Assembly: GCF_024713975.1 (NCBI RefSeq)
Contig: NC_091112.1
Location: 851,001 to 915,000, forward strand
Direction: 5' to 3'
Origin: Paralichthys olivaceus
Lineage: Eukaryota; Chordata; Actinopteri; Pleuronectiformes; Paralichthyidae
Length of the DNA: 64,000 nucleotides
Shown: positions 9,898-54,342 of the stretch, piece by piece
How the letters are laid out: each line of letters opens with the position of its first letter
Position numbering within the stretch: position 1 is the stretch's first letter
Program-made: the position numbers and the translations under genes
Notes under the pieces: model-generated
What the model was told of the DNA's origin: nothing
What the model saw: the letters and a program-made list of their open reading frames with translations, nothing else
Database searches by the model: none

Positions 9898-9944
9898 CTT
9901 TGCATCAGCAGCTCCATGCTCCAGTGCTCTGGGAGAGTTTATAG
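9898..9944 (+). promoter_or_regulatory. V1 promoter: octamer-like and TATA elements
   Basis: CTTTGCAT at 9898-9905 matches the Ig octamer ATTTGCAT in 7 of 8 bases, and TTTATAG at 9938-9944 is a TATA-like box. The leader ATG is 71 bp further on. The same pair at the same spacing precedes all 13 V segments; positions are in each V entry. Confidence 0.65.
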
Positions 9945-10014
9945 TCCAGAGAGGTGAAGACTGGATGACTGACAGCTGTCCCTCATGACCACAGAAATCC
10001 TGCTCATCAGAAAC

Positions 10015-10483
10015 ATGAGCTTTACCTCCGTCCTCGTCTGGACTCTCCTCTGCTGCTGCTTCACAGGTAAAGTCCAGAGCATCAGACTCCTCTGTCCACA
10101 TCGCTACCTCTGAAATGAAGCTGACAAAACCACCGCGCTGCTTCTTGTTTCTGTCTCTGTGTCCTCAGAGTCCAGAGGACAAGTCACAGTGTCTCAGCCT
10201 GGAGCAGTGACATCGACTGTGGGAAGCTCCGTCACCATCTCATGTAGAACCAGTCAGGCTGTTTATAATTCAAACTATTTAGCCTGGTACCAGCAGAGAG
10301 ATGGAGAAACTCCTAAACTGCTTATTTACACTGCTTCAACTCGAGCATCAGGGATTCCAGGACGTTTTTCAGGCAGTGGAGGAAACTCTGACTTCACTCT
10401 GACCATCAGTGGAGTCCAGGCTGAAGATGCTGCAGTTTACTATTGTCAGAGTTTTCACTATCCCAACAGTAAGCATCTGTTCA
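10015..10483 (+). CDS. IgL V segment V1
   Basis: Leader exon 10015-10066 ([17 protein letters not shown], donor GTAAAG) and V exon 10169-10483 join in phase 1 to give ...[17 protein letters not shown]. An in-frame ATG at 9984 would add 10 residues, but the shorter start gives the usual teleost V leader. Framework cysteines (ISCRTSQ and VYYCQS) and the WYQQ tryptophan are present. CDR1 is [12 protein letters not shown]2 TAS, germline CDR3 [13 protein letters not shown]. The exon ends at a consensus 12-RSS: CACAGTG 10484-10490, 12-bp spacer, ACAAAAACC 10503-10511. A (CA)n tract follows at 10561-10596. The 12-RSS on V is the kappa-like arrangement. V1 lies left of C1, whose J segments are on the other strand, so joining must invert DNA. 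Confidence 0.93.
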
Positions 10484-10559
10484 CACAGTGAAAAACCATC
10501 GTACAAAAACCTCATGAACAGAAACTGAATCTACTGCTGCAGCTGGAAGCTACTGCAGA

Positions 10560-10598
<39 letters not shown>

Positions 10599-10623
10599 TT
10601 GTCATCATGAAACACACTAACGA

Positions 10624-10725
10624 TTGTTCAGAGTTTCACATCATGAAATCCTCTTTTTTGCAGACGACATCTTACTTTATAGAACAAATCCTCTCAATAA
10701 CCAGATCCTCTTCTCTGATCCACTC
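10624..10725 (+). mobile_element. LINE reverse-transcriptase scrap in V flank (first of 13)
   Basis: One frame reads FADDILLYRTNPLNNQILF, the catalytic F/YADD box of a LINE reverse transcriptase, in a stretch of about 100 bp just after the (CA)n tract. It recurs after every V, at starts 16065, 17741, 21024, 26475, 31922, 33603, 39063, 44745, 47847, 49527, 52677 and 54425. It predates the V amplification and is too short to assign to a family. Confidence 0.6.
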
Positions 10726-11254
10726 ACTCCTCTGTGATATGAACAGGAACATTTCATTCAGAGTTTACGTTTCAGCACATGATGATCTTCATTATAACAG
10801 AATAATACTTGTTATAATCCTAGGAGCTTTATTTGTACAGCACTAAACAAGGTTACAAAGTGTATATCCTCTGACTGAGATCAAGACTCAAACATATATT
10901 TGATATAAACACATGTTCTCTGAGCCGTAGTAAGATGGAGCCATGCAGATATAGATCTACATGTAGATATAGATACGCTTCTATAGATCTAGATATCTAG
11001 AATTCATCTATAGAACAAGATGTGGCAGACCTCCCCTCATGCAGCTCCTCCCTGCAGGGGGCAGCACCATCAGGCTGTGGGCAGCTCGAGCAGAGAGAGA
11101 ACAAGTCAAACAAAAACTGAGAGTTGGGATGAAACTGCTCGTCAGTGTTTCACTTCCCTCTCTGAGCTCTGTAGCCATGGCAACAGACAGGCATCACTGC
11201 TGGACCATGGCAACAGACGGGTTTCAGTGCTCCAGATAAAAAAGTGGAGAAAAA

Positions 11255-13163
11255 CTGGTCATGCCCAAAATATCCGGCAGCGACCGTGAGATACTTGATG
11301 CCCCCGTACAACTCTCCGAGATTAAAGAGGCAACACAGTCAATGACTACTGGCAAATCCCCGGGACCCGATGGATACCCGGTTGAACTTTCTAAGAAATT
11401 CTCAGACCACTTGGCTCCGTGATTATGAGCAATGTTCAATCACTCATACCGCCAGGGTTCTCTGCCGCCCACTCTTACGCAGGCTTCTCTCTCTCTGATT
11501 TTTAAAACAGTCAGGGACCCTCTGGACTGTACATCTGTCCGCCCAATCTCGCTTCTACCTGTGGATGTTAGAATACTCACAAAGGCCTTGGCCCGCAGAT
11601 TAGAGCCTATCATGCCTTCAGTGATATCGGAGGACCAGACAGGGCTCATAAGGGGGAGGCACTCGTTGTCTAATGTCAGACGACTTCTCGGCGTCATCCA
11701 CACTCCACATTCTCCTACAGAACCAGAGGTTGTTATATCTCTTGACGCTGAGAAGGCTTTTGACAGGGTGCAGTGGGCCGATCTGTTCTCCTCTCTGCAA
11801 CGGTTTGGTTTTGGTGCAGGCCTCATCACCTGGATTCGATGACTTCACCCCTCCCCCTATGCATCAGTCTGTACTAACACCCAGCGCTCCGAATCCTTCC
11901 CTCTTTCCCACGGAACGCGTCAGGGGTGCCCGCTCCCCCCGCTTTTATTCACGGTCGCTATCGAGCCGCTCTCAATTGCGTTAAAGACGGAGAAAGGAAT
12001 TAAGGGAATTCAGAGATGGGGCACAGACCATAAGGTCTCGCTATATGCTGACGATCTTCTTTCATATGCTCGCGACCCTCTAACTAGTATACCATATATT
12101 CTGTCACTGCTGGAATCCTTCGGTGCGCTCTCAGGTTACAAACTAAACATTTTAAAAACTGAGTGTTTTGCCATCAACCAATTAGCTGCAGAACTGCCTT
12201 CGTCATTAAAACCCTTCAGATTCTCTGATACAGGATTTAAATATTTAGGCATTGTAATTACAAAATCTATTGGCACATTACGGGAACGGAATCTTACGAC
12301 AACAGTCAGATCTGATTTACAGAGGTGGAGCCGTCTACCGCTCTCTCTGGCTCGGAGGGTACAGGCGGTCAAGATGAATTTACTTCCTCTGTACTTATAT
12401 ATTTTTCAGTCTCTTCTTACCCAGGTCTTTTTCCACTAACTTAGCATCGTGTCTTCGTTCATTTGGTCTGGTAAGCATGCAAGAGTCTGTAGATCTGTTT
12501 TGCAGAGGAGTAAATCCCTTGGGGGGCTTGGGTTGCCTCGTCTTATCGGCTACTACTGGGCATCAAACGCCCATAAGGTTATGCTATGGTTCACCTCAGC
12601 TCAGAGTGACTGGTGCCAGATGGAAGCTAAGTCATGTCCCTCTTCCTCGCTTCAGGCCCTGGTTTGTAGTCACCTTCCTTTCTCCTTCACTACATTTCAC
12701 ATCTAATCCTATAGTGAGTGGCACCTTGAAAATCTGGGCTCAAATCAGGCGTCACTCCGGCTGGCTTACTCTCCCTCAGACAACTCCATTTGCAATAGTC
12801 ATTTATTCATGCCTGCTAAAATTGACCCTCGATATAAGTCCTTGGATAGGAATGGCCTCCGCAGCTTGAGAGATGTGTACACAGGCGGCTTATTTGCACG
12901 TTTTGAACGATTGCACGCGACCTTTAAGTTGACTAGCTCAGATTTCCTAAGATATTTTCAGCTACGTGATTTTGCGTAGACTTACTCCTCCCAGTTCCCT
13001 CAAATCCCACCTCCGAATGGTGCGGATCTAATACTCAAAGCTAAAACTCTTCCTAAGGGCCTTATCTCTTATTTTTATAACCTCCCTTCTCCGTCTATAG
13101 ACTCCGTGGTTAACAAAATTAGGGTCAGCTGGGAGAACGACCTGCAGATTACTTTGTCAGAGA
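11255..13163 (+). mobile_element. L1/Tx1-like LINE relic, copy A (C1 unit)
   Basis: A 5'-truncated non-LTR element in plus orientation. The RT domain is recognisable: PISLLPVDVRILTKALARRL, then SLDAEKAFDRV and a catalytic LYADDLLS near 12040. The frame is broken several times, including a TGA after the residues LITWIR near 11838, and no EN domain is present. The left end interrupts the V flank right after a gtggagaaaa run; the right end abuts the C 3' flank. The same breaks occur in the other three copies, so one insertion was duplicated with its unit. Confidence 0.85.
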
Positions 13164-13442
13164 GAGGCAGAAAATCTCCGTCTGATTCTTCAACTTGATG
13201 CTGACGATGTCCCGTCTTTCATTTCTGATCCTGAACATTTGGGGGATTTGCTGGGTTCATGTGGGCGATATCTCCCTTTATCTGACCAATCATGTCAAAC
13301 TCTTGAAGATTTGTCTGGAGCTCATTTCAGAGGAGCTTCACTCAACCTCTGTGCTCACCTGGTTTATTAGACCACGGCAAAATGAAAACGTCTGTTTGAC
13401 TCACAAATCCAAGGAAACGTTTTTGATTCAAACACAAACATC
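13163..13442. other. C1 3' flank with an open plus-strand reading stretch
   Basis: Conserved in every C unit. On the plus strand it can be read as about 65 codons (containing LDADDVPSFISDPEHLGDLL). The reading ends at TAG here but stays open (TGG) in the C5 unit. No known family was recognised; see findings. Confidence 0.4.
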
Positions 13443-13448
13443 TTTATT
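13443..13448 (-). terminator. C1 polyadenylation signal
   Basis: AATAAA on the minus strand about 120 bp past the C1 stop. Equivalents: C2 23843-23848, C3 29294-29299, C4 36422-36427, C5 42096-42101. Confidence 0.65.
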
Positions 13449-13565
13449 CTCTGAAAGGATTTCAAGCAAGAAATCATCACTACATGAAGATTGATTTGGA
13501 TCAGACTCCGAGCCGTGAAGAGACTGAGACCAGGAGCAGAGCAGAACCAGCAGCAGAGTGCCAGG

Positions 13566-13891
13566 TCAGGACTGGGAACACTGGTCTCTCCTCAGTGTCT
13601 CTGACAGCGGAGTCTGGGAGCCCTGGGAGGCCTCGCAGGTCACAGAGCCCACCTTCCTCCACTGCTCTGCAGGGAGCCTCAGGGTGCTGCTCCAGCTGTA
13701 GTGGCCGTCCTTCTCCAGCACCCCGGGGCTCCTGCTCTCCTCCCAGCTGCCACCGCTGCTGCCGTCCACCTTCCAGGACAGTCTCCAGTCGGAGGGGAAG
13801 CCCTTGTTGGCCAGGCACATGAGCGAGGCCGTCCCCTGCTGCAGCTCCTCGCTGGAGGGGGTTAGCACCGTCAGGGTGGGACGGACATCAC
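13566..13891 (-). CDS. IgL constant exon C1
   Basis: One exon, acceptor ctacag just before 13891 and stop TGA at 13568-13566. The first two bases complete a serine codon with the J donor base, giving [17 protein letters not shown]..., 108 residues. It is a C1-set Ig domain: C26 and C86 form the intradomain pair, WRLSWKV is the C-strand tryptophan, and C105 in the tail DQCSQS should bond the heavy chain. This copy has H in EKDGHYSW, as do C4 and C5. C1 serves the J pair at 14597-15002. The kappa-like RSS layout suggests the teleost L1/L3 group; I do not assign the exact isotype. Confidence 0.93.
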
Positions 13892-14249
13892 CTGTAGGAC
13901 ACAGCCATCGACTTAGAGCACAGGGAGCAGGCAGCTGTCAGTCAAACACCACACACTCTTTAGCTTTCTGCTCCAGTCGCTGTTTCACTTCCCTTTAACA
14001 AGCCTCTCATGCACATCAGCACAGAATCAGCACACACCTCAAATACATCCACGCTGGAAACGGATTCTGCTCAATTATTAAACACACAAAACCATCACAA
14101 ATCTAAAACACACACAACATGGACACAAACATCAAATGATGTGAGTTCTTCACGAGGGATTCAATCGCTGGTTTGAACAAAAGAAACTAGGATCAAAACC
14201 ACGTCTGTTACAACATTAGGACATAACGTTCACTCAGTGTAGTTCATAC

Positions 14250-14294
14250 AGGACAAGATGGTGTTTGTCCCGGGGACGTTCACCATCTTGTCCT
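14250..14294. repeat. Inverted repeat in the C1-J intron
   Basis: AGGACAAGATGGTG (14250-14263) and its exact reverse complement CACCATCTTGTCCT (14281-14294) flank a near-palindromic GTCCCGGGGAC. A strong hairpin or MITE remnant is possible. It is kept in all five C units. Confidence 0.8.
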
Positions 14295-14596
14295 ATATTC
14301 TAAAACATGTGAACAAAGGGAAACTTGGTTCATCTTGAAACAGTCGATCTTCTAGATTAGAAAGGAATCCTAAAAAAACCCTTCCGCTGACTTTATATCT
14401 TTTCTACGGTTCAACTTAAATTTCAGCCGGACTGTGTGAAGTGAAGCTGATCTGAGTTCAGCTGCAGGATGAAGGAGGAGAAATAAAAACAGTGTAAAGA
14501 ATAAAAGTGTAAAGAATGAAACAAGGGAGCTTCATCTTCTGCAGACATTTCAAAACTGAATTTACAATGTGAACTTGAATCTGAACAGAAACTTAC

Positions 14597-14634
14597 TTCC
14601 AACATCCAGTCTGGTTCCTCCACCAAACGTCCAC
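14597..14634 (-). CDS. IgL J segment J1-proximal
   Basis: A 38-bp J reading WTFGGGTRLDVG, donor GTAAGT (14596-14591). Consensus 23-RSS: CACTGTG at 14641-14635, 23-bp spacer, GGTTTTTGT at 14673-14665, all on the minus strand. Splices to C1. Confidence 0.9.
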
Positions 14635-14964
14635 CACAGTGACACAGACTCACTGAGCCGTCGTACAAAAACCTCCGACTGCAGAGACTCGACTCTCTGA
14701 CTCTGTTTGACGCAGCTAAAGCAGCAAAGCCTCAAGATGCAACTTCATAATGAAACGTGGGGGAAATGCTTCATCCTATAATCTTAATGTTTGTTCTTCA
14801 TTACAGGGACTTTGTACAGTTTCTGCTGCTCAAACTAACTTTGTTGAGAAGGTTTGAAAAAGCTTCAATCCACGTGGAAACACAGCTTCTCTTCCTGCGC
14901 TTGATGAATATGAAGGAAATAAAAAGAGAGAGGAAATAAAAGAGTTTATAAATATTTGACTTAC

Positions 14965-15002
14965 TTCCAACATCCAGTCTGGTTCCTCCACCAAACGTGT
15001 AC
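14965..15002 (-). CDS. IgL J segment J1-distal
   Basis: A 38-bp J reading YTFGGGTRLDVG, donor GTAAGT (14964-14959), 23-RSS heptamer 15009-15003 and nonamer 15041-15033. It lies 368 bp upstream (minus-strand sense) of the proximal J. Confidence 0.9.
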
Positions 15003-15467
15003 CACAGTGACACAGACTCACTGAGCCGTCGTACAAAAACCTCCGAGGACACGACTCTCTGACTCTGAAACAAACAAAGTCACCAGAAGGACTGTTTGTG
15101 AGATTTGTCTGAGAAGAACAAAAATCAATCAACAGGAAGAAGAACGAAGAAAAGAAATGTTGGAAACTTTGTCTGTAGATTTTCAAGAAAACCAAGCTGT
15201 TGTAAAAATACATTCAAAGAGGAGAAGTGGTCCTGAAACATGAAATCAAAACTACATGATGATGAGTGTTAACACCTCCTGATCAATACTCTGATCAAAT
15301 CATTGATTTATTGATGAGCAGCATCATCACAGCATTTCCATAGAGAGTCACTTTGCATCAGCAGCTCCATGCTCCAGTGCTCTGGGAGAGTTTATAGTCC
15401 AGAGAGGTGAAGACTGGATGACTGACAGCTGTCCCTCATGACCACAGAAATCCTGCTCATCAGAAAC

Positions 15468-15936
15468 ATGAGCTTTACCTCCGTCCTCGTCTGGACTCTC
15501 CTCTGCTGCTGCTTCACAGGTAAAGTCCAGAGCATCAGACTCCTCTGTCCACATCGCTACCTCTGAAATGAAGCTGACAAAACCACCGCGCTGCTTCTTG
15601 TTTCTGTCTCTGTGTCCTCAGAGTCCAGAGGACAAGTCACAGTGTCTCAGCCTGGAGCAGTGACATCGACTGTGGGAAGCTCCGTCACCATCTCATGTAG
15701 AACCAGTCAGAATGTTTATAGCTCAAACAGGTTAGCCTGGTACCAGCAGAGAGATGGAGAAACTCCTAAACTGCTTATTTACGATGCTTCAACTCGAGCA
15801 TCGGGGATTCCAGGACGTTTTTCAGGCAGTGGAAGAAACTCTGACTTCACTCTGACCATCAGTGGAGTCCAGGCTGAAGATGCTGCAGTTTACTATTGTC
15901 AGAGTTTTCACATTCTCAACAGTCAGTATCTGTTCA
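15468..15936 (+). CDS. IgL V segment V2
   Basis: Leader 15468-15519 and V exon 15622-15936, intact. CDR1 [12 protein letters not shown]2 DAS, germline CDR3 [13 protein letters not shown]. Octamer-like CTTTGCAT 15351-15358 and TTTATAG 15391-15397. 12-RSS: heptamer 15937-15943, nonamer 15956-15964. Short (CA)n tract 16014-16037. V2 starts only about 430 bp right of the J1-distal RSS and has the J-side upstream flank instead of the minisatellite. Confidence 0.93.
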
Positions 15937-16870
15937 CACAGTGAAAAACCATCGTACAAAAACCTCATGAACAGAAACTGAATCTACTGCTGCAGCTGGA
16001 AGCTACTGCAGAGACACACACACACACACACACACACTGTTGTCATCATGAAACACACTAACGATTGTTCAGAGTTTCACATCATGAAATCCTCTTTTTT
16101 GCAGACGACATCTTACTTTATAGAACAAATCCTCTCAATAACCAGATCCTCTTCTCTGATCCAGTCACTCCTCTGTGATATGAACAGGAACATTTCATTC
16201 AGAGTTTACGTTTCAGCACATGATGATCTTCATTATCACAGAATAATACTTGTTATAATTCTAGGAGCTTTATTTGTACAGCACTAAACAAGGTTACAAA
16301 GTGTATATCCTCTGACTGAGATCAAGACTCAAACATATATTTGATATAAACACATGTTCTCTGAGCCGTAGTAAGATGGAGCCATGCAGATATAGATCTA
16401 CATGTAGATATAGATACGCTTCTATAGATCTAGATATCTAGAATTCATCTATAGAACAAGATGTGGCAGACCTCCCCTCATGCAGCTCCTCCCTGCAGGG
16501 GGCAGCACCATCAGGCTGTGGGCAGCTCGAGCAGAGAGAGAACAAGTCAAACAAAAACTGAGAGTTGGGATGAAACTGCTCGTCAGTGTTTCACTTCCCT
16601 CTCTGAGCTCTGTAGCCATGGCAACAGACAGGCATCACTGCTGGACCACGGCAACAGACGGGTTTCAGTGCTCCAGATAAAAAAGTGGAGAAAAGTCAAA
16701 GTTCAAACAGTGAATAAATTCTTAACTGGTACAAGCTGCCTCCGATAAGTCCAATTAATTAGATTGTGTTCATTTCAATTAGCACAAGAAAAACATCCAA
16801 ACATGTTTCAACTAATGTTTTTTAATCCAACAAAAGAGAAACAACCAAGAGAATTTAATGGACCTCAATC

Positions 16871-17115: not shown

Positions 17116-17590
17116 ATGAGCTTTACCTCCGTCCTCGTCTGGACTCTCCTCTGCTGCTGCTTCACAGGTAAAGTCCAGAGCATCAGACTCCTCTGTCCAC
17201 ATCGCTACCTCTGAAATGAAGCTGACAAAACCACCGCGCTGCTTCTTGTTTCTGTCTCTGTGTCCTCAGAGTCCAGAGGACAAGTCACAGTGTCTCAGCC
17301 TGGAGCAGTGACATCGACTGTGGGAAGCTCCGTCACCATCTCATGTAGAACCAGTCAGGATGTTTATTTCTATAACTCAAACTATTTATCCTGGTACCAG
17401 CAGAGAGATGGAGAAACTCCTAAACTACTTATTTACTTGACTTCAACTCGAGCATCAGGGATTCCAGGACGTTTTTCAGGCAGTGGAAGAAACTCTGACT
17501 TCACTCTGACCATCAGTGGAGTCCAGGCTGAAGATGCTGCAGTTTACTATTGTCAGAGTTATCACTATCTCAACAGTCAGCATCTGTTCA
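17116..17590 (+). CDS. IgL V segment V3
   Basis: Leader 17116-17167 and V exon 17270-17590, intact. CDR1 is two codons longer than V1 ([11 protein letters not shown]); CDR2 LTS; CDR3 [13 protein letters not shown]. Octamer-like 16999-17006, TATA-like 17039-17045. 12-RSS: 17591-17597 and 17610-17618. (CA)n 17668-17713. Its downstream flank is interrupted by an L2-like LINE. Confidence 0.93.
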
Positions 17591-17666
17591 CACAGTGAAA
17601 AACCATCGTACAAAAACCTCATGAACAGAAACTGAATCTACTGCTGCAGCTGGAAGCTACTGCAGA

Positions 17667-20267: not shown

Positions 20268-20412
20268 CACATCACAGCATTTCCATAGAGAGTCACTTTG
20301 CATCAGCAGCTCCATGCTCCAGTGCTCTGGGAGAGTTTATAGTCCAGAGAGGTGAAGACTGGATGACTGACAGCTGTCCCTCATGACCACAGAAATCCTG
20401 CTCATCAGAAAC

Positions 20413-20881
20413 ATGAGCTTTACCTCCGTCCTCGTCTGGACTCTCCTCTGCTGCTGCTTCACAGGTAAAGTCCAGAGCATCAGACTCCTCTGTCCACATC
20501 GCTACCTTTGAAATGAAGCTGACAAAACCACCGCGCTGCTTCTTGTTTCTGTCTCTGTGTCCTCAGAGTCCAGAGGACAAGTCACAGTGTCTCAGCCTGG
20601 AGCAGTGACATCGACTGTGGGAAGCTCCGTCACCATCTCATGTAGAACCAGTCAGGCTGTTTATAGCTCAAACAGTTTATACTGGTACCAGCAGAGAGAT
20701 GGAGAAACTCCTAAACTGCTTATTTACGATGCTTCAACTCGAGCATCAGGGATTCCAGAACGTTTTTCAGGCAGTGGAAGAAACTCTGACTTCACTCTGA
20801 CCATCAGTGGAGTCCAGGCTGAAGATGCTGCAGTTTACTATTGTCAGAGTTTTCACTATCCCAACAGTCAGGCTCTGTTCA
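20413..20881 (+). CDS. IgL V segment V4
   Basis: Leader 20413-20464 and V exon 20567-20881, intact. CDR1 SQAVYSSNS followed by LYW (others LAW or LSW), CDR2 DAS, CDR3 [13 protein letters not shown]. Octamer-like 20296-20303, TATA-like 20336-20342. 12-RSS: 20882-20888 and 20901-20909. (CA)n 20959-20996. Protein identical to V5. Confidence 0.93.
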
Positions 20882-20957
20882 CACAGTGAAAAACCATCGT
20901 ACAAAAACCTCATGAACAGAAACTGAATCTACTGCTGCAGCTGGAAGCTACTGCAGA

Positions 20958-20998
<41 letters not shown>

Positions 20999-21654
20999 TT
21001 GTCATCATGAAACACACTAACGATTGTTCAGAGTTTCACATCATGAAATCCTCTTTTTTGCAGACGACATCTTACTTTATAGAACAAATCCTCTCAATAA
21101 CCAGATCCTCTTCTCTGATCCACTCACTCCTCTGTTATATGAACAGGAACATTTCATTCAGAGTTTACGTTTCAGCACATGATGATCTTCATTATCACAG
21201 AATAATACTTGTTATAATTCTAGGAGCTTTATTTGTACAGCACTAAACAAGGTTACAAAGTGTATATCCTCTGACTGAGATCAAGACTCAAACATATATT
21301 TGATATAAACACATGTTCTCTGAGCCGTAGTAAGATGGAGCCATGCAGATATAGATCTACATGTAGATATAGATACGGTTCTATAGATCTAGATATCTAG
21401 AATTCATCTATAGAACAAGATGTGGCAGACCTCCCCTCATGCAGCTCCTCCCTGCAGGGGGCAGCACCATCAGGCTGTGGGCAGCTCGAGCAGAGAGAGA
21501 ACAAGTCAAACAAAAACTGAGAGTTGGGATGAAACTGCTCGTCAGTGTTTCACTTCCCTCTCTGAGCTCTGTAGCCATGGCAACAGACAGGCATCACTGC
21601 TGGACCACGGCAACAGACGGGTTTCAGTGCTCCAGATAAAAAAGTGGAGAAAAA

Positions 21655-23563
21655 CTGGTCATGCCCAAAATATCCGGCAGCGACCGTGAGATACTTGATG
21701 CCCCCGTACAACTCTCCGAGATTAAAGAGGAAACACAGTCAATGACTACTGGCAAATCCCCGGGACCCGATGGATACCCGGTTGAACTTTCTAAGAAATT
21801 CTCAGACCACTTGGCTCCGTGATTATGAGCAATGTTCAATCACTCATACCGCCAGGGTTCTCTGCCGCCCACTCTTACGCAGGCTTCTCTCTCTCTGATT
21901 TTTAAAACAGGCAGGGACCCTCTGGACTGTACATCTGTCCGCCCAATCTCGCTTCTACCTGTGGATGTTAGAATACTCACAAAGGCCTTGGCCCGCAGAT
22001 TAGAGCCTATCATGCCTTCAGTGATATCGGAGGACCAGACAGGGCTCATAAGGGGGAGGCACTCGTTGTCTAATGTCAGACGACTTCTCGGCGTCATCCA
22101 CACTCCACATTCTCCTACAGAACCAGAGGTTGTTATATCTCTTGACGCTGAGAAGGCTTTTGACAGGGTGGAGTGGGCCGATCTGTTCTCCTCTCTGCAA
22201 CGGTTTGGTTTTGGTGCAGGCCTCATCACCTGGATTCGATGACTTCACCCCTCCCCCTATGCATCAGTCTGTACTAACACCCAGCGCTCCGAATCCTTCC
22301 CTCTTTCCCACGGAACGCGTCAGGGGTGCCCGCTCCCCCCGCTTTTATTCACGGTCGCTATCGAGCCGCTCTCAATTGCGTTAAAGACGGAGAAAGGAAT
22401 TAAGGGAATTCAGAGATGGGGCACAGACCATAAGGTCTCGCTATATGCTGACGATCTTCTTTCATATGCTCGCGACCCTCTAACTAGTATACCATATATT
22501 CTGTCACTGCTGGAATCCTTCGGTGCGCTCTCAGGTTACAAACTAAACATTTTAAAAAGTGAGTGTTTTGCCATCAACCAATTAGCTGCAGAACTGCCTT
22601 CGTCATTAAAACCCTTCAGATTCTCTGATACAGGATTTAAATATTTAGGCATTGTAATTACAAAATCTATTCGCACATTACGGGAACGGAATCTTACGAC
22701 AACAGTCAGATCTGATTTACAGAGGTGGAGCCGTCTACCGCTCTCTCTGGCTCGGAGGGTACAGGCGGTCAAGATGAATTTACTTCCTCTGTACTTATAT
22801 ATTTTTCAGTCTCTTCTTACCCAGGTCTTTTTCCACTAACTTAGCATCGTGTCTTCGTTCATTTGGTCTGGTAAGCATGCAAGAGTCTGTAGATCTGTTT
22901 TGCAGAGGAGTAAATCCCTTGGGGGGCTTGGGTTGCCTCGTCTTATCGGCTACTACTGGGCATCAAACGCCCATAAGGTTATGCTATGGTTCACCTCAGC
23001 TCAGAGTGACTGGGGCCAGATGGAAGCTAAGTCATGTCCCTCTTCCTCGCTTCAGGCCCTGGTTTGTAGTCACCTTCCTTTCTCCTTCACTACATTTCAC
23101 ATCTAATCCTATAGTGAGTGGCACCTTGAAAATCTGGGCTCAAATCAGGCGTCACTCCGGCTGGCTTACTCTCCCTCAGACAACTCCATTTGCAATAGTC
23201 ATTTATTCATGCCTGCTAAAATTGACCCTCGATATAAGTCCTTGGATAGGAATGGCCTCCGCAGCTTGAGAGATGTGTACACAGGCGGCTTGTTTGCACG
23301 TTTTGAACGATTGCACACGACCTTTAAGTTGACTAGCTCAGATTTCCTAAGATATTTTCAGCTACGTGATTTTGCGTAGACTTACTCCTCCCAGTTCCCT
23401 CAAATCCCACCTCCGAATGGTGCGGATCTAATACTCAAAGCTAAAACTCTTCCTAAGGGCCTTATCTCTTATTTTTATAACCTCCCTTCTCCGTCTATAG
23501 ACTCCGTGGTTAACAAAATTAGGGTCAGCTGGGAGAACGACCTGCAGATTACTTTGTCAGAGA
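21655..23563 (+). mobile_element. L1/Tx1-like LINE relic, copy B (C2 unit)
   Basis: Same ends and same internal breaks as copy A, offset 10,400 bp. It differs by scattered substitutions (for example DRVEWADL versus DRVQWADL). Confidence 0.85.
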
Positions 23564-23965
23564 GAGGCAGAAAATCTCCGTCTGATTCTTCAACTTGATG
23601 CTGACGATGTCCCGTCTTTCATTTCTGATCCTGAACATTTGGGGGATTTGCTGGGTTCATGTGGGCGATATCTCCCTTTATCTGACCAATCATGTCAAAC
23701 TCTTGAAGATTTGTCTAGAGCTCATTTCAGAGGAGCTTCACTCAACCTCTGTGCTCACCTGGTTTATTAGACCACGGCAAAATGAAAACGTCTGTTTGAC
23801 TCACAAATCCAAGGAAACGTTTTTGATTCAAACACAAACATCTTTATTCTCTGAAAGGATTTCAAGCAAGAAATCATCACTACATGAAGATTGATTTGGA
23901 TCAGACTCAGAGCCGTGAAGAGACTGAGACCAGGAGCAGAGTAGAACCAGCAGCAGAGTGCCAGG

Positions 23966-24291
23966 TCAGGACTGGGAACACTGGTCTCTCCTCAGTGTCT
24001 CTGACAGCGGAGTCTGGGAGCCCTGGGAGGCCTCGCAGGTCACAGAGCCCACCTTCCTCCACTGCTCTGCAGGGAGCCTCAGGGTGCTGCTCCAGCTGTA
24101 GCGGCCGTCCTTCTCCAGCACCCCGGGGCTCCTGCTCTCCTCCCAGCTGCCACCGCTGCTGCCGTCCACCTTCCAGGACAGTCTCCAGTCGGAGGGGAAG
24201 CCCTTGTTGGCCAGGCACATGAGCGAGGCCGTCCCCTGCTGCAGCTCCTCGCTGGAGGGGGTTAGCACCGTCAGGGTGGGACGGACATCAC
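23966..24291 (-). CDS. IgL constant exon C2
   Basis: Same exon structure as C1: acceptor before 24291, stop 23968-23966. It differs in one residue, R for H in EKDGRYSW. Intradomain and terminal cysteines are kept. Serves J pair at 24997-25402. Confidence 0.93.
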
Positions 24292-25863: not shown

Positions 25864-26332
25864 ATGAGCTTTACCTCCGTCCTCGTCTGGACTCTCCTCT
25901 GCTGCTGCTTCACAGGTAAAGTCCAGAGCATCAGACTCCTCTGTCCACATCGCTACCTTTGAAATGAAGCTGACAAAACCACCGCGCTGCTTCTTGTTTC
26001 TGTCTCTGTGTCCTCAGAGTCCAGAGGACAAGTCACAGTGTCTCAGCCTGGAGCAGTGACATCGACTGTGGGAAGCTCCGTCACCATCTCATGTAGAACC
26101 AGTCAGGCTGTTTATAGCTCAAACAGTTTATACTGGTACCAGCAGAGAGATGGAGAAACTCCTAAACTGCTTATTTACGATGCTTCAACTCGAGCATCAG
26201 GGATTCCAGAACGTTTTTCAGGCAGTGGAAGAAACTCTGACTTCACTCTGACCATCAGTGGAGTCCAGGCTGAAGATGCTGCAGTTTACTATTGTCAGAG
26301 TTTTCACTATCCCAACAGTCAGGCTCTGTTCA
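25864..26332 (+). CDS. IgL V segment V5
   Basis: Leader 25864-25915 and V exon 26018-26332, identical to V4 in all residues. Octamer-like 25747-25754, TATA-like 25787-25793. 12-RSS: 26333-26339 and 26352-26360. (CA)n 26410-26447, same length as V4. Its upstream flank is the J-side type because it follows the J2 pair. Confidence 0.93.
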
Positions 26333-26408
26333 CACAGTGAAAAACCATCGTACAAAAACCTCATGAACAGAAACTGAATCTACTGCTGCAGCTGGAAGCT
26401 ACTGCAGA

Positions 26409-26449
<41 letters not shown>

Positions 26450-29416: not shown

Positions 29417-29742
29417 TCAGGACTGGGAACACTGGTCTCTCCTCAGTGTCTCTGACAGCGGAGTCTGGGAGCCCTGGGAGGCCTCGCAGGTCACAGAGCC
29501 CACCTTCCTCCACTGCTCTGCAGGGAGCCTCAGGGTGCTGCTCCAGCTGTAGCGGCCGTCCTTCTCCAGCACCCCGGGGCTCCTGCTCTCCTCCCAGCTG
29601 CCACCGCTGCTGCCGTCCACCTTCCAGGACAGTCTCCAGTCGGAGGGGAAGCCCTTGTTGGCCAGGCACATGAGCGAGGCCGTCCCCTGCTGCAGCTCCT
29701 CGCTGGAGGGGGTTAGCACCGTCAGGGTGGGACGGACATCAC
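29417..29742 (-). CDS. IgL constant exon C3
   Basis: Acceptor before 29742, stop 29419-29417; protein identical to C2 (EKDGRYSW). Serves J pair at 30448-30853. Confidence 0.93.
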
Positions 29743-31314: not shown

Positions 31315-31783
31315 ATGAGCTTTACCTCCGTCCTCGTCTGGACTCTCCTCTGCTGCTGCTTCACAGGTAAAGTCCAGAGCATCAGACTCCTCTGTCCACA
31401 TCGCTACCTCTGAAATGAAGCTGACAAAACCACCGCGCTGCTTCTTGTTTCTGTCTCTGTGTCCTCAGAGTCCAGAGGACAAGTCACAGTGTCTCAGCCT
31501 GGAGCAGTGACAACGACTGTGGGAAGCTCCGTCACCATCTCATGTAGAACCAGTCAGGATGTTTATGACTCAGACAGTTTATCCTGGTACCAGCAGAGAG
31601 ATGGAGAAACTCCTAAACTGCTTATTTATGAAGCTTCAACTCGAGCATCAGGGATTCCAGGACGTTTTTCAGGCAGTGGAGGAAACTCTGACTTCACTCT
31701 GACCATCAGTGGAGTCCAGGCTGAAGATGCTGCAGTTTACTATTGTCAGAGTTTTCACTATCCCAACAGTCAGTATCTGTTCA
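31315..31783 (+). CDS. IgL V segment V6
   Basis: Leader 31315-31366 and V exon 31469-31783, intact. Has AVTTTVG where most have AVTSTVG. CDR1 [12 protein letters not shown]2 EAS, CDR3 [13 protein letters not shown]. Octamer-like 31198-31205, TATA-like 31238-31244. 12-RSS: 31784-31790 and 31803-31811. (CA)n 31861-31894. Follows the J3 pair. Confidence 0.93.
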
Positions 31784-31859
31784 CACAGTGAAAAACCATC
31801 GTACAAAAACCTCATGAACAGAAACTGAATCTACTGCTGCAGCTGGAAGCTACTGCAGA

Positions 31860-31896
<37 letters not shown>

Positions 31897-33001: not shown

Positions 33002-33470
33002 ATGAGCTTTACCTCCGTCCTCGTCTGGACTCTCCTCTGCTGCTGCTTCACAGGTAAAGTCCAGAGCATCAGACTCCTCTGTCCACATCGCTACCTCTGA
33101 AATGAAGCTGACAAAACCACCGCGCTGCTTCTTGTTTCTGTCTCTGTGTCCTCAGAGTCCAGAGGACAAGTCACAGTGTCTCAGCCTGGAGCAGTGTCAT
33201 CGACTGTGGGAAGCTCCGTCACCATCTCATGTAGAACCAGTCAGGCTGTTTATAATTCAGACCGTTTAGCCTGGTACCAGCAGAGAGATGGAGAAACTCC
33301 TAAACTACTTATTTACTCTGCTTCAACTCGAGCATCAGGGATTCCAGGACGTTTTTCAGGCAGTGGAAGAAACTCTGACTTCACTCTGACCATCAGTGGA
33401 GTCCAGGCTGAAGATGCTGCAGTTTACTATTGTCTAGGTGAATTTGAGTCCAACAGTCAGTATCTGTTCA
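33002..33470 (+). CDS. IgL V segment V7
   Basis: Leader 33002-33053 and V exon 33156-33470, intact. AVSSTVG in framework 1. CDR1 [12 protein letters not shown]2 SAS. CDR3 is of a different family, [13 protein letters not shown], so the cysteine is followed by LG and not QS. Octamer-like 32885-32892, TATA-like 32925-32931. 12-RSS: 33471-33477 and 33490-33498. (CA)n 33548-33575. Confidence 0.93.
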
Positions 33471-34233
33471 CACAGTGAAAAACCATCGTACAAAAACCTC
33501 ATGAACAGAAACTGAATCTACTGCTGCAGCTGGAAGCTACTGCAGAGACACACACACACACACACACACACACACTGTTGTCATCATGAAACACACTAAC
33601 GATTGTTCAGAGTTTCACATCATGAAATCCTCTTTTTTGCAGACGACATCTTACTTTATAGAACAAATCCTCTCAATAACCAGATCCTCTTCTCTGATCC
33701 ACTCACTCCTCTGTTATATGAACAGGAACATTTCATTCAGAGTTTACGTTTCAGCACATGATGATCTTCATTATCACAGAATAATACTTGTTATAATTCT
33801 AGGAGCTTTATTTGTACAGCACTAAACAAGGTTACAAAGTGTATATCCTCTGACTGAGATCAAGACTCAAACATATATTTGATATAAACACATATTCTCT
33901 GAGCCGTAGTAAGATGGAGCCATGCAGATATAGATCTACATGTAGATATAGATACGCTTCTATAGATCTAGATATCTAGAATTCATCTATAGAACAAGAT
34001 GTGGCAGACCTCCCCTCATGCAGCTCCTCCCTGCAGGGGGCAGCACCATCAGGCTGTGGGCAGCTCGAGCAGAGAGAGAACAAGTCAAACAAAAACTGAG
34101 AGTTGGGATGAAACTGCTCGTCAGTGTTTCACTTCCCTCTCTGAGCTCTGTAGCCATGGCAACAGACAGGCATCACTGCTGGACCATGGCAACAGACGGG
34201 TTTCAGTGCTCCAGATAAAAAAGTGGAGAAAAA

Positions 34234-36544: not shown

Positions 36545-36870
36545 TCAGGACTGGGAACACTGGTCTCTCCTCAGTGTCTCTGACAGCGGAGTCTGGGAGC
36601 CCTGGGAGGCCTCGCAGGTCACAGAGCCCACCTTCCTCCACTGCTCTGCAGGGAGCCTCAGGGTGCTGCTCCAGCTGTAGTGGCCGTCCTTCTCCAGCAC
36701 CCCGGGGCTCCTGCTCTCCTCCCAGCTGCCACCGCTGCTGCCGTCCACCTTCCAGGACAGTCTCCAGTCGGAGGGGAAGCCCTTGTTGGCCAGGCACATG
36801 AGCGAGGCCGTCCCCTGCTGCAGCTCCTCGCTGGAGGGGGTTAGCACCGTCAGGGTGGGACGGACATCAC
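36545..36870 (-). CDS. IgL constant exon C4
   Basis: Acceptor before 36870, stop 36547-36545; protein identical to C1 (EKDGHYSW). Serves J pair at 37576-37981. Confidence 0.93.
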
Positions 36871-38446: not shown

Positions 38447-38930
38447 ATGAGCTTTACCTCCGTCCTCGTCTGGACTCTCCTCTGCTGCTGCTTCACAGGT
38501 AAAGTCCAGAGCATCAGACTCCTCTGTCCACATCGCTACCTCTGAAATGAAGCTGACAAAACCACCGCGCTGCTTCTTGTTTCTGTCTCTGTGTCCTCAG
38601 AGTCCAGAGGACAAGTCACAGTGTCTCAGCCTGGAGCAGTGACATCGACTGTGGGAAGCTCCGTCACCATCTCATGTAGAACCAGTCAGGATGTTTATTT
38701 CCATAGCTCAGCCAGTTCATACTGGTTAGCCTGGTACCAGCAGAGAGATGGAGAAACTCCTAAACTGCTTATTTACTCTGTTTCAACTCGAGCATCAGGG
38801 ATTCCAGAACGTTTTTCAGGCAGTGGAAGAAACTCTGACTTCACTCTGACCATCAGTGGAGTCCAGGCTGAAGATGCTGCAGTTTACTATTGTCTAGGTC
38901 AATTTGATTCCAGCAAGTGGGATCTGTTCA
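38447..38930 (+). CDS. IgL V segment V8
   Basis: Leader 38447-38498 and V exon 38601-38930, intact. CDR1 is five codons longer than V1 ([14 protein letters not shown]); CDR2 SVS; CDR3 [13 protein letters not shown], the most divergent in the locus. Octamer-like 38330-38337, TATA-like 38370-38376. 12-RSS: 38931-38937 and 38950-38958. (CA)n 39008-39035. Follows the J4 pair. Confidence 0.93.
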
Positions 38931-39868
38931 CACAGTGAAAAACCATCGTACAAAAACCTCATGAACAGAAACTGAATCTACTGCTGCAGCTGGAAGCTAC
39001 TGCAGAGACACACACACACACACACACACACACACTGTTGTCATCATGAAACACACTAACGATTGTTCAGAGTTTCACATCATGAAATCCTCTTTTTTGC
39101 AGACGACATCTTACTTTATAGAACAAATCCTCTCAATAACCAGATCCTCTTCTCTGATCCACTCACTCCTCTGTTATATGAACAGGAACATTTCATTCAG
39201 AGTTTACGTTTCAGCACATGATGATCTTCATTATCACAGAATAATACTTGTTATAATTCTAGGAGCTTTATTTGTACAGCACTCAACAAGGTTACAAAGT
39301 GTATATCCTCTGACTGAGATCAAGACTCAAACATATATTTGATATAAACACATGTTCTCTGAGCCGTAGTAAGATGGAGCCATGCAGATATAGATCTACA
39401 TGTAGATATAGATACGGTTCTATAGATCTAGATATCTAGAATTCATCTATAGAACAAGATGTGGCAGACCTCCCCTCATGCAGCTCCTCCCTGCAGGGGG
39501 CAGCACCATCAGGCTGTGGGCAGCTCGAGCAGAGAGAGAACAAGTCAAACAAAAACTGAGAGTTGGGATGAAACTGCTCGTCAGTGTTTCACTTCCCTCT
39601 CTGAGCTCTGTAGCCATGGCAACAGACAGGCATCACTGCTGGACCATGGCAACAGACGGGTTTCAGTGCTCCAGATAAAAAAGTGGAGAAAAGTCAAAGT
39701 TCAAACAGTGAATAAATTCTTAACTGGTACAAGCTGCCTCCGATAAGTCCAATTAATTAGATTGTGATCATTTCAATTAGCACAAGAAAAACATCCAAAC
39801 ATGTTTCAACTAATGTTTTTTAATCCAACAAAAGAGAAACAACCAAGAGAATTTAATGGACCTCAATC

Positions 39869-41521: not shown

Positions 41522-41879
41522 TTTTTCAAACTCTATTTGCTGTTGTAAAGAATTCGTATATTAAAGTTCCTGGGACGCTGAAAGTCCTTCAGGGTTGTGG
41601 GTATCAGAGCGAGTCTTCATACCTATTCCCACTAGAAACTCTTCATCCTGAAACGTGTGTATTTGCTCCGTTCATGCAGTTCTCTGACTTTATTGTACTG
41701 ATCATTTGTACAAGTTGAAACAGAGCAAACCCTCCTCTGGTCTGCAGGGAGCCTCAGGTGCTGCTCCAGCTGCAGTGGTCCTACTTTAGCTGCTCCAGAT
41801 GGGACATGTTCATGTAGAGGCAGAAAATCTCCGTCTGATTCTTCAACTTGATGCTGACGATGTCCCGTCTTTCATTTCT
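41522..41879. repeat. IgL C-flank duplication block, C5 copy
   Basis: Nearly identical to 8976-9339. Differences include a small change near 41709 (ttgtacaag versus ttgttgaacaacaag). It runs directly into the C5 3' flank, so this is the more complete version. Confidence 0.8.
41741..41782 (-). pseudogene. Fragment of an IgL C exon, second copy
   Basis: Same 42-bp C-exon remnant as at 9201-9242, with the same one-base loss, about 0.4 kb beyond the end of C5. Confidence 0.7.
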
Positions 41880-42218: not shown

Positions 42219-42544
42219 TCAGGACTGGGAACACTGGTCTCTCCTCAGTGTCTCTGACAGCGGAGTCTGGGAGCCCTGGGAGGCCTCGCAGGTCACAGAG
42301 CCCACCTTCCTCCACTGCTCTGCAGGGAGCCTCAGGGTGCTGCTCCAGCTGTAGTGGCCGTCCTTCTCCAGCACCCCGGGGCTCCTGCTCTCCTCCCAGC
42401 TGCCACCGCTGCTGCCGTCCACCTTCCAGGACAGTCTCCAGTCGGAGGGGAAGCCCTTGTTGGCCAGGCACATGAGCGAGGCCGTCCCCTGCTGCAGCTC
42501 CTCGCTGGAGGGGGTTAGCACCGTCAGGGTGGGACGGACATCAC
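42219..42544 (-). CDS. IgL constant exon C5
   Basis: Acceptor before 42544, stop 42221-42219; protein identical to C1 and C4. This is the only C unit without the L1-like relic. Serves J pair at 43250-43655. Confidence 0.93.
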
Positions 42545-44120: not shown

Positions 44121-44589
44121 ATGAGCTTTACCTCCGTCCTCGTCTGGACTCTCCTCTGCTGCTGCTTCACAGGTAAAGTCCAGAGCATCAGACTCCTCTG
44201 TCCACATCGCTACCTCTGAAATGAAGCTGACAAAACCACCGCGCTGCTTCTTGTTTCTGTCTCTGTGTCCTCAGAGTCCAGAGGACAAGTCACAGTGTCT
44301 CAGCCTGGAGCAGTGACATCGACTGTGGGAAGCTCCGTCACCATCTCATGTAGAACCAGTCAGGCTGTTTATAGCTCAAACTATTTATCCTGGTACCAGC
44401 AGAGAGATGGAGAAACTCCTAAACTGCTTATTTACTATACTTCCTCTCGAGCATCAGGGATTCCAGGACGTTTTTCAGGCAGTGGAGGAAACTCTGACTT
44501 CACTCTGACCATCAGTGGAGTCCAGGCTGAAGATGCTGCAGTTTACTATTGTCAGAGTCAGCACTATCTCAACAGTCAGGCTCTGTTCA
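44121..44589 (+). CDS. IgL V segment V9
   Basis: Leader 44121-44172 and V exon 44275-44589, intact. CDR1 [12 protein letters not shown]2 YTS followed by SRAS (others TRAS), CDR3 [13 protein letters not shown]. Octamer-like 44004-44011, TATA-like 44044-44050. 12-RSS: 44590-44596 and 44609-44617. (CA)n 44667-44716. Follows the J5 pair; an L2-like LINE interrupts its flank. Confidence 0.93.
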
Positions 44590-44665
44590 CACAGTGAAAA
44601 ACCATCGTACAAAAACCTCATGAACAGAAACTGAATCTACTGCTGCAGCTGGAAGCTACTGCAGA

Positions 44666-47220: not shown

Positions 47221-47704
47221 ATGAGCTTTACCTCCGTCCTCGTCTGGACTCTCCTCTGCTGCTGCTTCACAGGTAAAGTCCAGAGCATCAGACTCCTCTG
47301 TCCACATTGCTACCTCTGAAATGAAGCTGACAAAACCACCGCGCTGCTTCTTGTTTCTGTCTCTGTGTCCTCAGAGTCCAGAGGACAAGTCACAGTGTCT
47401 CAGCCTGGAGCAGTGACATCGACTGTGGGAAGCTCCGTCACCATCTCATGTAGAACCAGTCAGGATGTTTATTTCGATAGCTCAGCCAGCTCATACAGGT
47501 TAGCCTGGTACCAGCAGAGAGATGGAGAAACTACTAAACAGCTTATTTACTATACTTCCACTCGAGCATCAGGGATTCCAGAACGTTTTTCAGGCAGTGG
47601 AAGAAACTCTGACTTCACTCTGACCATCAGTGGAGTCCAGGCTGAAGATGCTGCAGTTTACTATTGTCAGAGTTTTCACTATCCCAACAGTCAGTATCTG
47701 TTCA
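47221..47704 (+). CDS. IgL V segment V10
   Basis: Leader 47221-47272 and V exon 47375-47704, intact. Long CDR1 [14 protein letters not shown], framework 2 with ETTKQLIY where others have [11 protein letters not shown]2 YTS, CDR3 [13 protein letters not shown]. Octamer-like 47104-47111, TATA-like 47144-47150. 12-RSS: 47705-47711 and 47724-47732. (CA)n 47784-47819. Matches V12 up to CDR3. Confidence 0.93.
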
Positions 47705-47782
47705 CACAGTGAAAAACCATCGTACAAAAACCTCATGAACAGAAACTGAATCTACTGCTGCAGCTGGAAGCTACTGCAGAGA

Positions 47783-48897: not shown

Positions 48898-49366
48898 ATG
48901 AGCTTTACCTCCGTCCTCGTCTGGACTCTCCTCTGCTGCTGCTTCACAGGTAAAGTCCAGAGCATCAGACTCCTCTGTCCACATCGCTACCTCTGAAATG
49001 AAGCTGACAAAACCACCGCGCTGCTTCTTGTTTCTGTCTCTGTGTCCTCAGAGTCCAGAGGACAAGTCACAGTGTCTCAGCCTGGAGCAGTGACATCGAC
49101 TGTGGGAAGCTCCGTCACCATCTCATGTAGAACCAGTCAGGCTGTTCATGGCTCAAACTATTTAGCCTGGTACCAGCAGAGAGATGGAGAAACTCCTAAA
49201 CTGCTTATTTATGAAGCTTCAACTCGAGAATCAGGGATTCCAGAACGTTTTTCAGGCAGTGGAAGAAACTCTGACTTCACTCTGACCATCAGTGGAGTCC
49301 AGGCTGAAGATGCTGCAGTTTACTATTGTCAGAGTTTTCACTATCTCAACAGTAAGAATCTGTTCA
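48898..49366 (+). CDS. IgL V segment V11
   Basis: Leader 48898-48949 and V exon 49052-49366, intact. CDR1 SQAVHGSNY (H for the usual Y), CDR2 EAS followed by TRES, CDR3 [13 protein letters not shown]. Octamer-like 48781-48788, TATA-like 48821-48827. 12-RSS: 49367-49373 and 49386-49394. (CA)n 49444-49499, the longest in the locus. Confidence 0.93.
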
Positions 49367-49442
49367 CACAGTGAAAAACCATCGTACAAAAACCTCATGA
49401 ACAGAAACTGAATCTACTGCTGCAGCTGGAAGCTACTGCAGA

Positions 49443-52034: not shown

Positions 52035-52518
52035 ATGAGCTTTACCTCCGTCCTCGTCTGGACTCTCCTCTGCTGCTGCTTCACAGGTAAAGTCCAGAGC
52101 ATCAGACTCCTCTGTCCACATCGCTACCTCTGAAATGAAGCTGACAAAACCACCGCGCTGCTTCTTGTTTCTGTCTCTGTGTCCTCAGAGTCCAGAGGAC
52201 AAGTCACAGTGTCTCAGCCTGGAGCAGTGACATCGACTGTGGGAAGCTCCGTCACCATCTCATGTAGAACCAGTCAGGATGTTTATTTCGATAGCTCAGC
52301 CAGCTCATACAGGTTAGCCTGGTACCAGCAGAGAGATGGAGAAACTACTAAACAGCTTATTTACTATACTTCCACTCGAGCATCAGGGATTCCAGAACGT
52401 TTTTCAGGCAGTGGAAGAAACTCTGACTTCACTCTGACCATCAGTGGAGTCCAGGCTGAAGATGCTGCAGTTTACTATTGTCAGAGTTTTCACTATCCCA
52501 ACAGTAAGCATCTGTTCA
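52035..52518 (+). CDS. IgL V segment V12
   Basis: Leader 52035-52086 and V exon 52189-52518, intact. Same CDR1, ETTKQLIY framework 2 and CDR2 as V10, but CDR3 is [13 protein letters not shown] as in V1. Octamer-like 51918-51925, TATA-like 51958-51964. 12-RSS: 52519-52525 and 52538-52546. (CA)n 52596-52649. Confidence 0.93.
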
Positions 52519-52594
52519 CACAGTGAAAAACCATCGTACAAAAACCTCATGAACAGAAACTGAATCTACTGCTGCAGCTGGAAGCTACTGCAGA

Positions 52595-52651
<57 letters not shown>

Positions 52652-53482
52652 TTGTCATCATGAAACACACTAACGATTGTTCAGAGTTTCACATCATGAA
52701 ATCCTCTTTTTTGCAGACGACATCTTACTTTATAGAACAAATCCTCTCAATAACCAGATCCTCTTCTCTGATCCACTCACTCCTCTGTGATATGAACAGG
52801 AACATTTCATTCAGAGTTTACGTTTCAGCACATGATGATCTTCATTATAACAGAATAATACTTGTTATAATTCTAGGAGCTTTATTTGTACAGCACTAAA
52901 CAAGGTTACAAAGTGTATATCCTCTGACTGAGATCAAGACTCAAACATATGTTTGATATAAACACATGTTCTCTGAGCCGTAGTAAGATGGAGCCATGCA
53001 GATATAGATCTACATGTAGATATAGATACGGTTCTATAGATCTAGATATCTAGAATTCATCTATAGAACAAGATGTGGCAGACCTCCCCTCATGCAGCTC
53101 CTCCCTGCAGGGGGCAGCACCATCAGGCTGTGGGCAGCTCGAGCAGAGAGAGAACAAGTCAAACAAAAACTGAGAGTTGGGATGAAACTGCTCGTCAGTG
53201 TTTCACTTCCCTCTCTGAGCTCTGTAGCCATGGCAACAGACAGGCATCACTGCTGGACCATGGCAACAGACGGGTTTCAGTGCTCCAGATAAAAAAGTGG
53301 AGAAAAGTCAAAGTTCAAACAGTGAATAAATTCTTAACTGGTACAAGCTGCCTCCGATAAGTCCAATTAATTAGATTGTGTTCATTTCAATTAGCACAAG
53401 AAAAACATCCAAACATGTTTCAACTAATGTTTTTTAATCCAACAAAAGAGAAACAACCAAGAGAATTTAATGGACCTCAATC

Positions 53483-53653
53483 ATGATGTACATGAGGACG
53501 AGGACTTATCTGTGGACATGATGTACATGAGGACTTATCTGTGGACATGATGTACATGAGGACTTATCTGTGGACATGATGTACATGAGGACGAGGACTT
53601 ATCTGTGGACATGATGTACATGAGGACGTGGACTTATCTGTGGACATGATGTA
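53483..53653. repeat. Pre-V minisatellite, V13
   Basis: About five units, one with GAGGACGTGGAC, a variant also found in the right-edge remnant at 54753. Confidence 0.9.
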
Positions 53654-53797
53654 ACATCACAGCATTTCCATAGAGAGTCACTTTGCATCAGCAGCTCCAT
53701 GCTCCAGTGCTCTGGGAGAGTTTATAGTCCAGAGAGGTGAAGACTGGATGACTGACAGCTGTCCCTCATGACCACAGAAATCCTGCTCATCAGAAAC

Positions 53798-54266
53798 ATG
53801 AGCTTTACCTCCGTCCTCGTCTGGACTCTCCTCTGCTGCTGCTTCACAGGTAAAGTCCAGAGCATCAGACTCCTCTGTCCACATCGCTACCTCTGAAATG
53901 AAGCTGACAAAACCACCGCGCTGCTTCTTGTTTCTGTCTCTGTGTCCTCAGAGTCCAGAGGACAAGTCACAGTGTCTCAGCCTGGAGCAGTGACATCGAC
54001 TGTGGGCAGCTCCGTCACCATCTCATGTAGAACCAGTCAGGATGTTTATAGCTCAAACTATTTATCCTGGTACCAGCAGAGAGATGGAGAAACTCCTAAA
54101 CTGCTTATTTACGATGCTTCAACTCGAGCATCAGGGATTCCAGGACGTTTTTCAGGCAGTGGAAGAAACTCTGACTTCACTCTGACCATCAGTGGAGTCC
54201 AGGCTGAAGATGCTGCAGTTTACTATTGTCAGAGTCAGCACTATCTCAACAGTCAGTATCTGTTCA
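53798..54266 (+). CDS. IgL V segment V13
   Basis: Leader 53798-53849 and V exon 53952-54266, intact. CDR1 [12 protein letters not shown]2 DAS, CDR3 [13 protein letters not shown]. Octamer-like 53681-53688, TATA-like 53721-53727. 12-RSS: 54267-54273 and 54286-54294. (CA)n 54344-54397. It is the last V on this side; its downstream flank is cut at 54753, before the palindromic block and CTCF-like motif. Confidence 0.93.
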
Positions 54267-54342
54267 CACAGTGAAAAACCATCGTACAAAAACCTCATGA
54301 ACAGAAACTGAATCTACTGCTGCAGCTGGAAGCTACTGCAGA

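Follow-up and report, generated by a model that had tools for sequence, protein, structure and literature searches.

A 64-kb stretch of the Paralichthys olivaceus genome (C20:851001-915000, hereafter the window) very probably holds a kappa-like (teleost L1-type) immunoglobulin light-chain locus that looks complete and intact and has grown by direct tandem duplication, and in which RAG would pair the recombination signal sequences with 12-bp spacers (12-RSS) of variable (V) segments with the 23-RSS of joining (J) segments, first joins flipping the DNA. Our analysis confirmed that 13 V segments face 10 J segments and five constant (C) exons in opposed polarity. An earlier note on this DNA had placed the V with their 12-RSS on the plus strand and the C and the J, with 23-RSS, on the minus strand, and the RSS scans, the reads of the V and J segments and the list of open reading frames (ORFs) all agree with it. 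Such an opposed layout is already known from other fish, and the locus adds one more well-formed example to it rather than a new type of system.

A strict RSS scan (heptamer with CAC fixed and at most one mismatch, nonamer with at most two, spacer of 11-13 or 22-24) identified 23 RSS in the window: the spacer is 12 bp long in 13 of them and 23 bp long in the other 10. Each reads CACAGTG/ACAAAAACC with zero mismatches, and every heptamer reads on the plus strand. A looser scan (spacers of 12 and 23, CAC fixed, at most three mismatches in total) found no extra site on either strand of the window; applied to five mononucleotide shuffles, it gave 0, 1, 1, 0 and 2 sites, each at three mismatches. 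By our own arithmetic, about 6e-5 perfect sites would be expected by chance. A single spacer sequence is common to 13/13 V RSS and another to 10/10 J RSS. The 12-RSS directly follow open plus strand V exons in all 13 cases, and all 10 23-RSS adjoin minus strand J segments with the core TFGGGTRLDVGS and a GTAAGT donor.

The five C exons lie on the minus strand of the window, encode proteins 99-100% identical to one another and in 5/5 copies retain both the TACAG acceptor and a pair of AATAAA sites. Pfam assigned one C to C1-set (9.5e-13) and one V to V-set (7.6e-19), and returned no match for seven of the ten proteins submitted, each of the seven being a flanking ORF. Before each of the 13 V stands an octamer-like TTTGCAT, followed 39 bp on by a TATA-like TTTATAG. 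The leader ATG, leader donor and V acceptor were read in V1, and alignment showed this region to be almost unchanged in the other twelve V. The limits that the earlier note had set to the locus fit these signals: the left end agrees with the octamer-like TTTGCAT at 9899, 585 bp before the first V-RSS, and the right end, 54294, is the last base of the last V-RSS. BLASTN searches of the window with the V exon, leader, J and C found no complete reverse-oriented copy, the rows on the opposite strand being 13-19 nt long.

The features that mark teleost kappa-like (L1/L3) loci are found here: perfect-consensus 12-RSS on 13/13 V and 23-RSS on 10/10 J, plus strand V (13) opposed to linked minus strand J and C (10 and 5), several closely linked C with their own J (five C, two J apiece), and V-set and C1-set domains (Pfam on one V and one C) in open frames (13/13 V and 5/5 C exons). 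A C-domain search took in the whole genome (588 Mb in 25 contigs) and scored the best candidates, its counts being lower bounds; it gave at least 25 matches, namely the window's five on C20, all on the minus strand, 13 on C12 and seven on C5. Among the matches listed, C20 contributes none beyond the five C of the window. The C matches at C5:16.29 Mb (E 2.1e-4 and 9.4e-4), which are probable heavy-chain domains, were excluded from the light-chain comparison. In the 10 kb flanking the window on each side, neither BLASTN nor TBLASTN matched V, J or C, and RSS-like sites were absent at up to three mismatches. Plus strand J-C units, which the earlier note had taken to speak against itself, occur neither in the window, nor among the C20 matches listed, nor within 10 kb outside. 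Some points weigh against our reading of the locus. The L1 label is provisional and follows published V12-23J and opposite-polarity criteria; the locus was read from sequence alone; and V segments were covered in the window plus 10 kb on each side, which leaves room for lone V farther out on C20.

Under RAG, a V 12-RSS would pair with a J 23-RSS, and because both RSS point the same way, the DNA between V and J would be flipped and both joints kept in the chromosome. Where the V lies right of a J-C, it is the V that would be flipped into the J-C; where it lies left, the J-C would be flipped to the V. The possible joins were enumerated with segments as tokens, all pairs being weighted alike and chromatin, distance and signal-joint reuse ignored. 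Each of the 130 possible germline pairings of a V with a J is inversional, and every product reaches its own C. The V lies left of the J in 50 of these primary pairs and right of it in 80, with V-J spans of 0.9-39.6 kb (shortest 930 bp, median 13.6 kb). As the earlier note had stated, V segments lie on both sides of each C, with 1, 4, 5, 7 and 8 V to the left of C1-C5 and 12, 9, 8, 6 and 5 to the right. This geometry is observed directly, like the layout, the perfect RSS, the open reading frames and the splice signals.

Later joins could invert, delete or place the coding joint on a circle. After one first join, the enumeration yielded 14,040 second joins: 9,356 are inversions, 2,342 are deletions, and in the remaining 2,342 the coding joint ends up on a circle. 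The claim that every join must be inversional thus holds for first joins (130/130) but fails for later ones, and the locus as a whole is not purely inversional: an inversion-only germline layout turns mixed after a single join, which corrects a shortcut. Each of the 2,342 deletional second joins removes the first VJ, with a median of seven other V or J segments lost and none lost in 58 cases. In the 9,356 inversional second joins, the first VJ keeps a C in 8,966 and is cut off from C in 390. The note had also supposed that successive inversions could reshuffle or rescue segments without losing any; this does not hold, given the second joins that delete or put the coding joint on a circle, and the 8,966 inversional ones that leave the first VJ with a C make no replacement by themselves. 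Retention of segments does not amount to rescue. We infer that RAG would use the locus in B cells, and that its two J per C and spare V may serve receptor editing. Because every first join leaves its signal joint in the chromosome, inversion-based editing is testable joint by joint in this locus, and its contiguous sequence without N, two J per C and open frames in 13 V and five C make it a test ground for such work. A scan of 13300-15200, one J-C interval, for Kde-like signals (at most five mismatches) gave three weak plus strand sites, with five mismatches each, beside two J-RSS.

The suggestion that a multi-cluster inversional layout is less described did not survive comparison with published loci: V are opposed to J-C in zebrafish (chr1 and chr19), torafugu and cod. 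In zebrafish (Zimmerman et al. 2008; PMC3014032), VL are opposed to JL and CL on both chromosomes, cDNAs were interpreted as inter-cluster inversions, the farthest joining V1 to C5 of chr19 over 81 kb, and inversion was argued to preserve segments for secondary joins. The zebrafish loci share with C20 the opposed V, the 12-RSS of V and the 23-RSS of J, and chr19 also has several C (J5/C5 being named). In contrast, the C20 locus has two J per C, is compact in its primary spans (0.9-39.6 kb) and contains V units far more alike than V1 and V2 of zebrafish chr19 (~69%). Zebrafish L3 clusters are given in a review as V4-J-C-V2 and V2-J-C-V2 (PMC5192425). In torafugu, V flank one J-C on both sides and inversion is expected for joining (PMC5241823). 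The L1 and L3 loci of torafugu resemble C20 in V12-23J and in V of opposite polarity on both sides of J-C, but they are split over scaffolds, and one assembly (chromosome 2) sets three V in the C orientation, whereas the C20 locus is contiguous. The kappa locus on Atlantic cod chromosome 5, in which the majority of V are opposed to J and C, also resembles C20 in its recent duplications, conserved promoters, canonical heptamer and nonamer and conserved spacer (PMC11223323). It differs in size and uniformity, with 104 V, 98 J, 99 C and five V in the same orientation, against 13, 10, 5 and none in C20.

Two further light-chain loci of the same genome were compared with the C20 locus, 110 kb being fetched for C12 and 12.185-12.225 Mb for C5, where the locus may extend further. 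The counts exclude sites with three mismatches, 15 in the C12 scan and one in the scan at C5 12.19 Mb; of the 15, 13 represent a single site that recurs 381-384 bp from V of family A (see below). The L1/L3-like C12 locus (8.86-8.94 Mb) then has 23 V-type RSS (22 perfect, one with one mismatch) and 11 perfect J-type RSS, including one at 8923398 whose J core is unreadable; its 13 C outnumber these 11 RSS. Its main block comprises 21 V (-), 10 J (+) and 12 C (+), and a small left block two V (+), one J (-) and one C (-). Like C20, the C12 locus has V opposed to J-C within each of its two blocks, nearly all RSS perfect, and diversity highest in complementarity-determining region (CDR) 3. Unlike C20, one small block is turned round, and for this reason 41 of the 253 primary V x J pairs would delete, the other 212 inverting. 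The window C is 65-67% identical to nine C12 copies and 37% identical to four other C12 copies and five C5 copies. The C5 locus at 12.19-12.22 Mb, which we take to be L2-like, contains seven V (+), five V (-), five J (-) and five C (-), and its 60 pairs divide into 35 that invert, 15 that delete and 10 that face away. Each of its five J has a V of like orientation whose RSS lies 297 bp from it (deletional), and the seven other V are opposed (inversional).

Self-comparison of the window revealed direct repeats, with unit lengths of ~5.45-5.67, 3.1-3.3 and 1.65-1.76 kb, and no inverted repeats. Positions 20272-27104 match 25723-32551 at 99.7% over 6,833 bp, and the pair is, judged from this match, a recent duplication. 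The locus would thus have grown as direct tandem duplication multiplied a unit V(+) / C(-) / J(-) / J(-), together with V-only units. Because this process copied one ancestral orientation, the 23 orientations are not independent, and the uniform orientation is one inherited layout, not 23 independent facts. A minus strand C exon relic (47 nt at 83%) follows 12 of the 13 V, and with one more left of V1 there are 13 copies (e.g. 9395-9440, 11032-11077 and 16473-16518); a second relic type (71 nt at 83%, minus strand) has two copies at 9180-9246 and 41720-41786. Since C exon relics stand beside V segments, the V-only units probably once had J-C and descend from V-C-J units after its loss. Between V and C, the ORF list read by eye also contains plus strand reverse-transcriptase-like ORFs at 11429-12869, 21829-23269, 27280-28720 and 34408-35848, all four being copies of one element, and a further such ORF, from a different element, at 40107-41013.

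Near-identical tandem units might have been wrongly multiplied or oriented in the assembly, making the uniform polarity or copy number partly an artefact. The 99.7% match over 6,833 bp would allow this, as would V4 and V5, which have an identical V exon protein. However, the window is without N, CDRs, insertions and unit length vary among the copies, so that most of the copies are not duplicates of one read path, and the C12 locus obeys the same polarity rule inside its blocks; we regard an artefact as extremely unlikely. How freely the segments combine is a separate matter. The locus might in practice work as five mini-clusters, with nearly all joins linking a J pair to its right-hand V ~0.9 kb away and the other V rarely reached. 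Every J pair does have one V just to its right, the shortest span (930 bp) is far below the median of 13.6 kb, and the term mini-clusters is applied to published fish loci (PMC11223323). Against this, the zebrafish cDNAs were matched to chr19 V and C separated by as much as 81 kb (PMC3014032), and the RSS is the same in all V here, so the RSS itself sets no preference. Restricted joining of this kind is conceivable, and we consider it the less probable outcome. The preferred reading remains a tandemly duplicated locus with first joins by inversion.

The 13 V units (window 9884-10720 and 12 matching units) are almost invariant from the octamer to the 3' flank except in CDR1, CDR2 and CDR3. Nucleotide diversity over ungapped columns is 0.0015 in the 287 bp of 5' flank, leader and intron, and 0 both in the 74 bp of RSS and 3' flank and in another 112 bp. 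Values for the framework regions (FR) are 0.0055 (FR1), 0.0251 (FR2) and 0.0096 (FR3), and the CDRs reach 0.166, 0.142 and 0.189, CDR1 also varying in length. Pooled pairwise nonsynonymous and synonymous divergence (pN/pS) is 0.192 / 0.099 in the CDRs and 0.0106 / 0.0129 in the frameworks. CDR blocks are shared in mosaic, with 115 of 325 biallelic site pairs failing the four-gamete test. The C12 V families A and B (14 and 9 copies) show a similar, less clean pattern: leader and intron diversity is 0.0039 and 0.0014 and that of CDR3 0.253 and 0.218, and the CDR2 of family B (0.037) is no higher than its FR3 (0.042).

On the plain reading, duplication and conversion would have homogenised the V array, and diversifying selection would act on the CDRs. 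Ordinary diversifying selection on recently duplicated genes, with no special germline process, would probably account for the CDR-only diversity: pN exceeds pS in the CDRs and not in the frameworks, and both C12 families peak in CDR3. Yet CDR pS is far above the flanks (0.0015 and 0), and the failed four-gamete tests argue for exchange between copies as well. The high CDR pS is not explained by amino-acid selection alone and hints at exchange of short tracts. One could go further and regard the three CDRs as exempt from near-total homogenisation, their blocks diverging and changing places among the 13 copies; in the boldest form, a germline process, not selection alone, would introduce or move CDR-sized tracts, the inversion-only first join keeping every V in play. 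We consider this very unlikely. Among the papers that a literature search on CDR-confined germline diversity in fish light chains listed, no description of it was recognised. The CDR-only diversity offers a clean natural case for weighing selection against exchange between copies as the source of germline antibody diversity.

Table 1 Segments of the light-chain locus, in window coordinates. Leader starts of V2-V13 were placed by alignment.
Feature	Position	Strand	Remarks
V1	10015..10511	+	leader, V exon, 12-RSS at 10484
V2	15468..15964	+	12-RSS at 15937
V3	17116..17618	+	12-RSS at 17591
V4	20413..20909	+	12-RSS at 20882
V5	25864..26360	+	12-RSS at 26333
V6	31315..31811	+	12-RSS at 31784
V7	33002..33498	+	12-RSS at 33471
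V8	38447..38958	+	12-RSS at 38931; long CDR1
V9	44121..44617	+	12-RSS at 44590
V10	47221..47732	+	12-RSS at 47705; long CDR1
V11	48898..49394	+	12-RSS at 49367
V12	52035..52546	+	12-RSS at 52519; long CDR1
V13	53798..54294	+	12-RSS at 54267
J proximal to C1	14597..14673	-	23-RSS
J distal to C1	14965..15041	-	23-RSS
J proximal to C2	24997..25073	-	23-RSS
J distal to C2	25365..25441	-	23-RSS
J proximal to C3	30448..30524	-	23-RSS
J distal to C3	30816..30892	-	23-RSS
J proximal to C4	37576..37652	-	23-RSS
J distal to C4	37944..38020	-	23-RSS
J proximal to C5	43250..43326	-	23-RSS
J distal to C5	43618..43694	-	23-RSS
C1 exon	13566..13891	-	ORF list, BLASTN, Pfam C1-set
C2 exon	23966..24291	-	ORF list, BLASTN
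C3 exon	29417..29742	-	ORF list, BLASTN
C4 exon	36545..36870	-	ORF list, BLASTN
C5 exon	42219..42544	-	ORF list, BLASTN

The V families of C12 (C12:8861230-8943554) also show cysteine patterns of their own. All 14 family A V have Ala in place of the first conserved FR1 Cys (IGAR), yet are open; they keep their 12-RSS, 13 of them perfect and the one at 8930386 with one mismatch. In family B, eight of nine members have two extra CDR1 Cys and the ninth has one. To the left of the C20 locus, a POMC exon with ACTH and opioid domains (Pfam) occupies 7918-8442 of the window, ~1.5 kb from the first V promoter, and a fibrinogen-domain exon is also present on this side, whose best solved match is angiopoietin-related protein 2.

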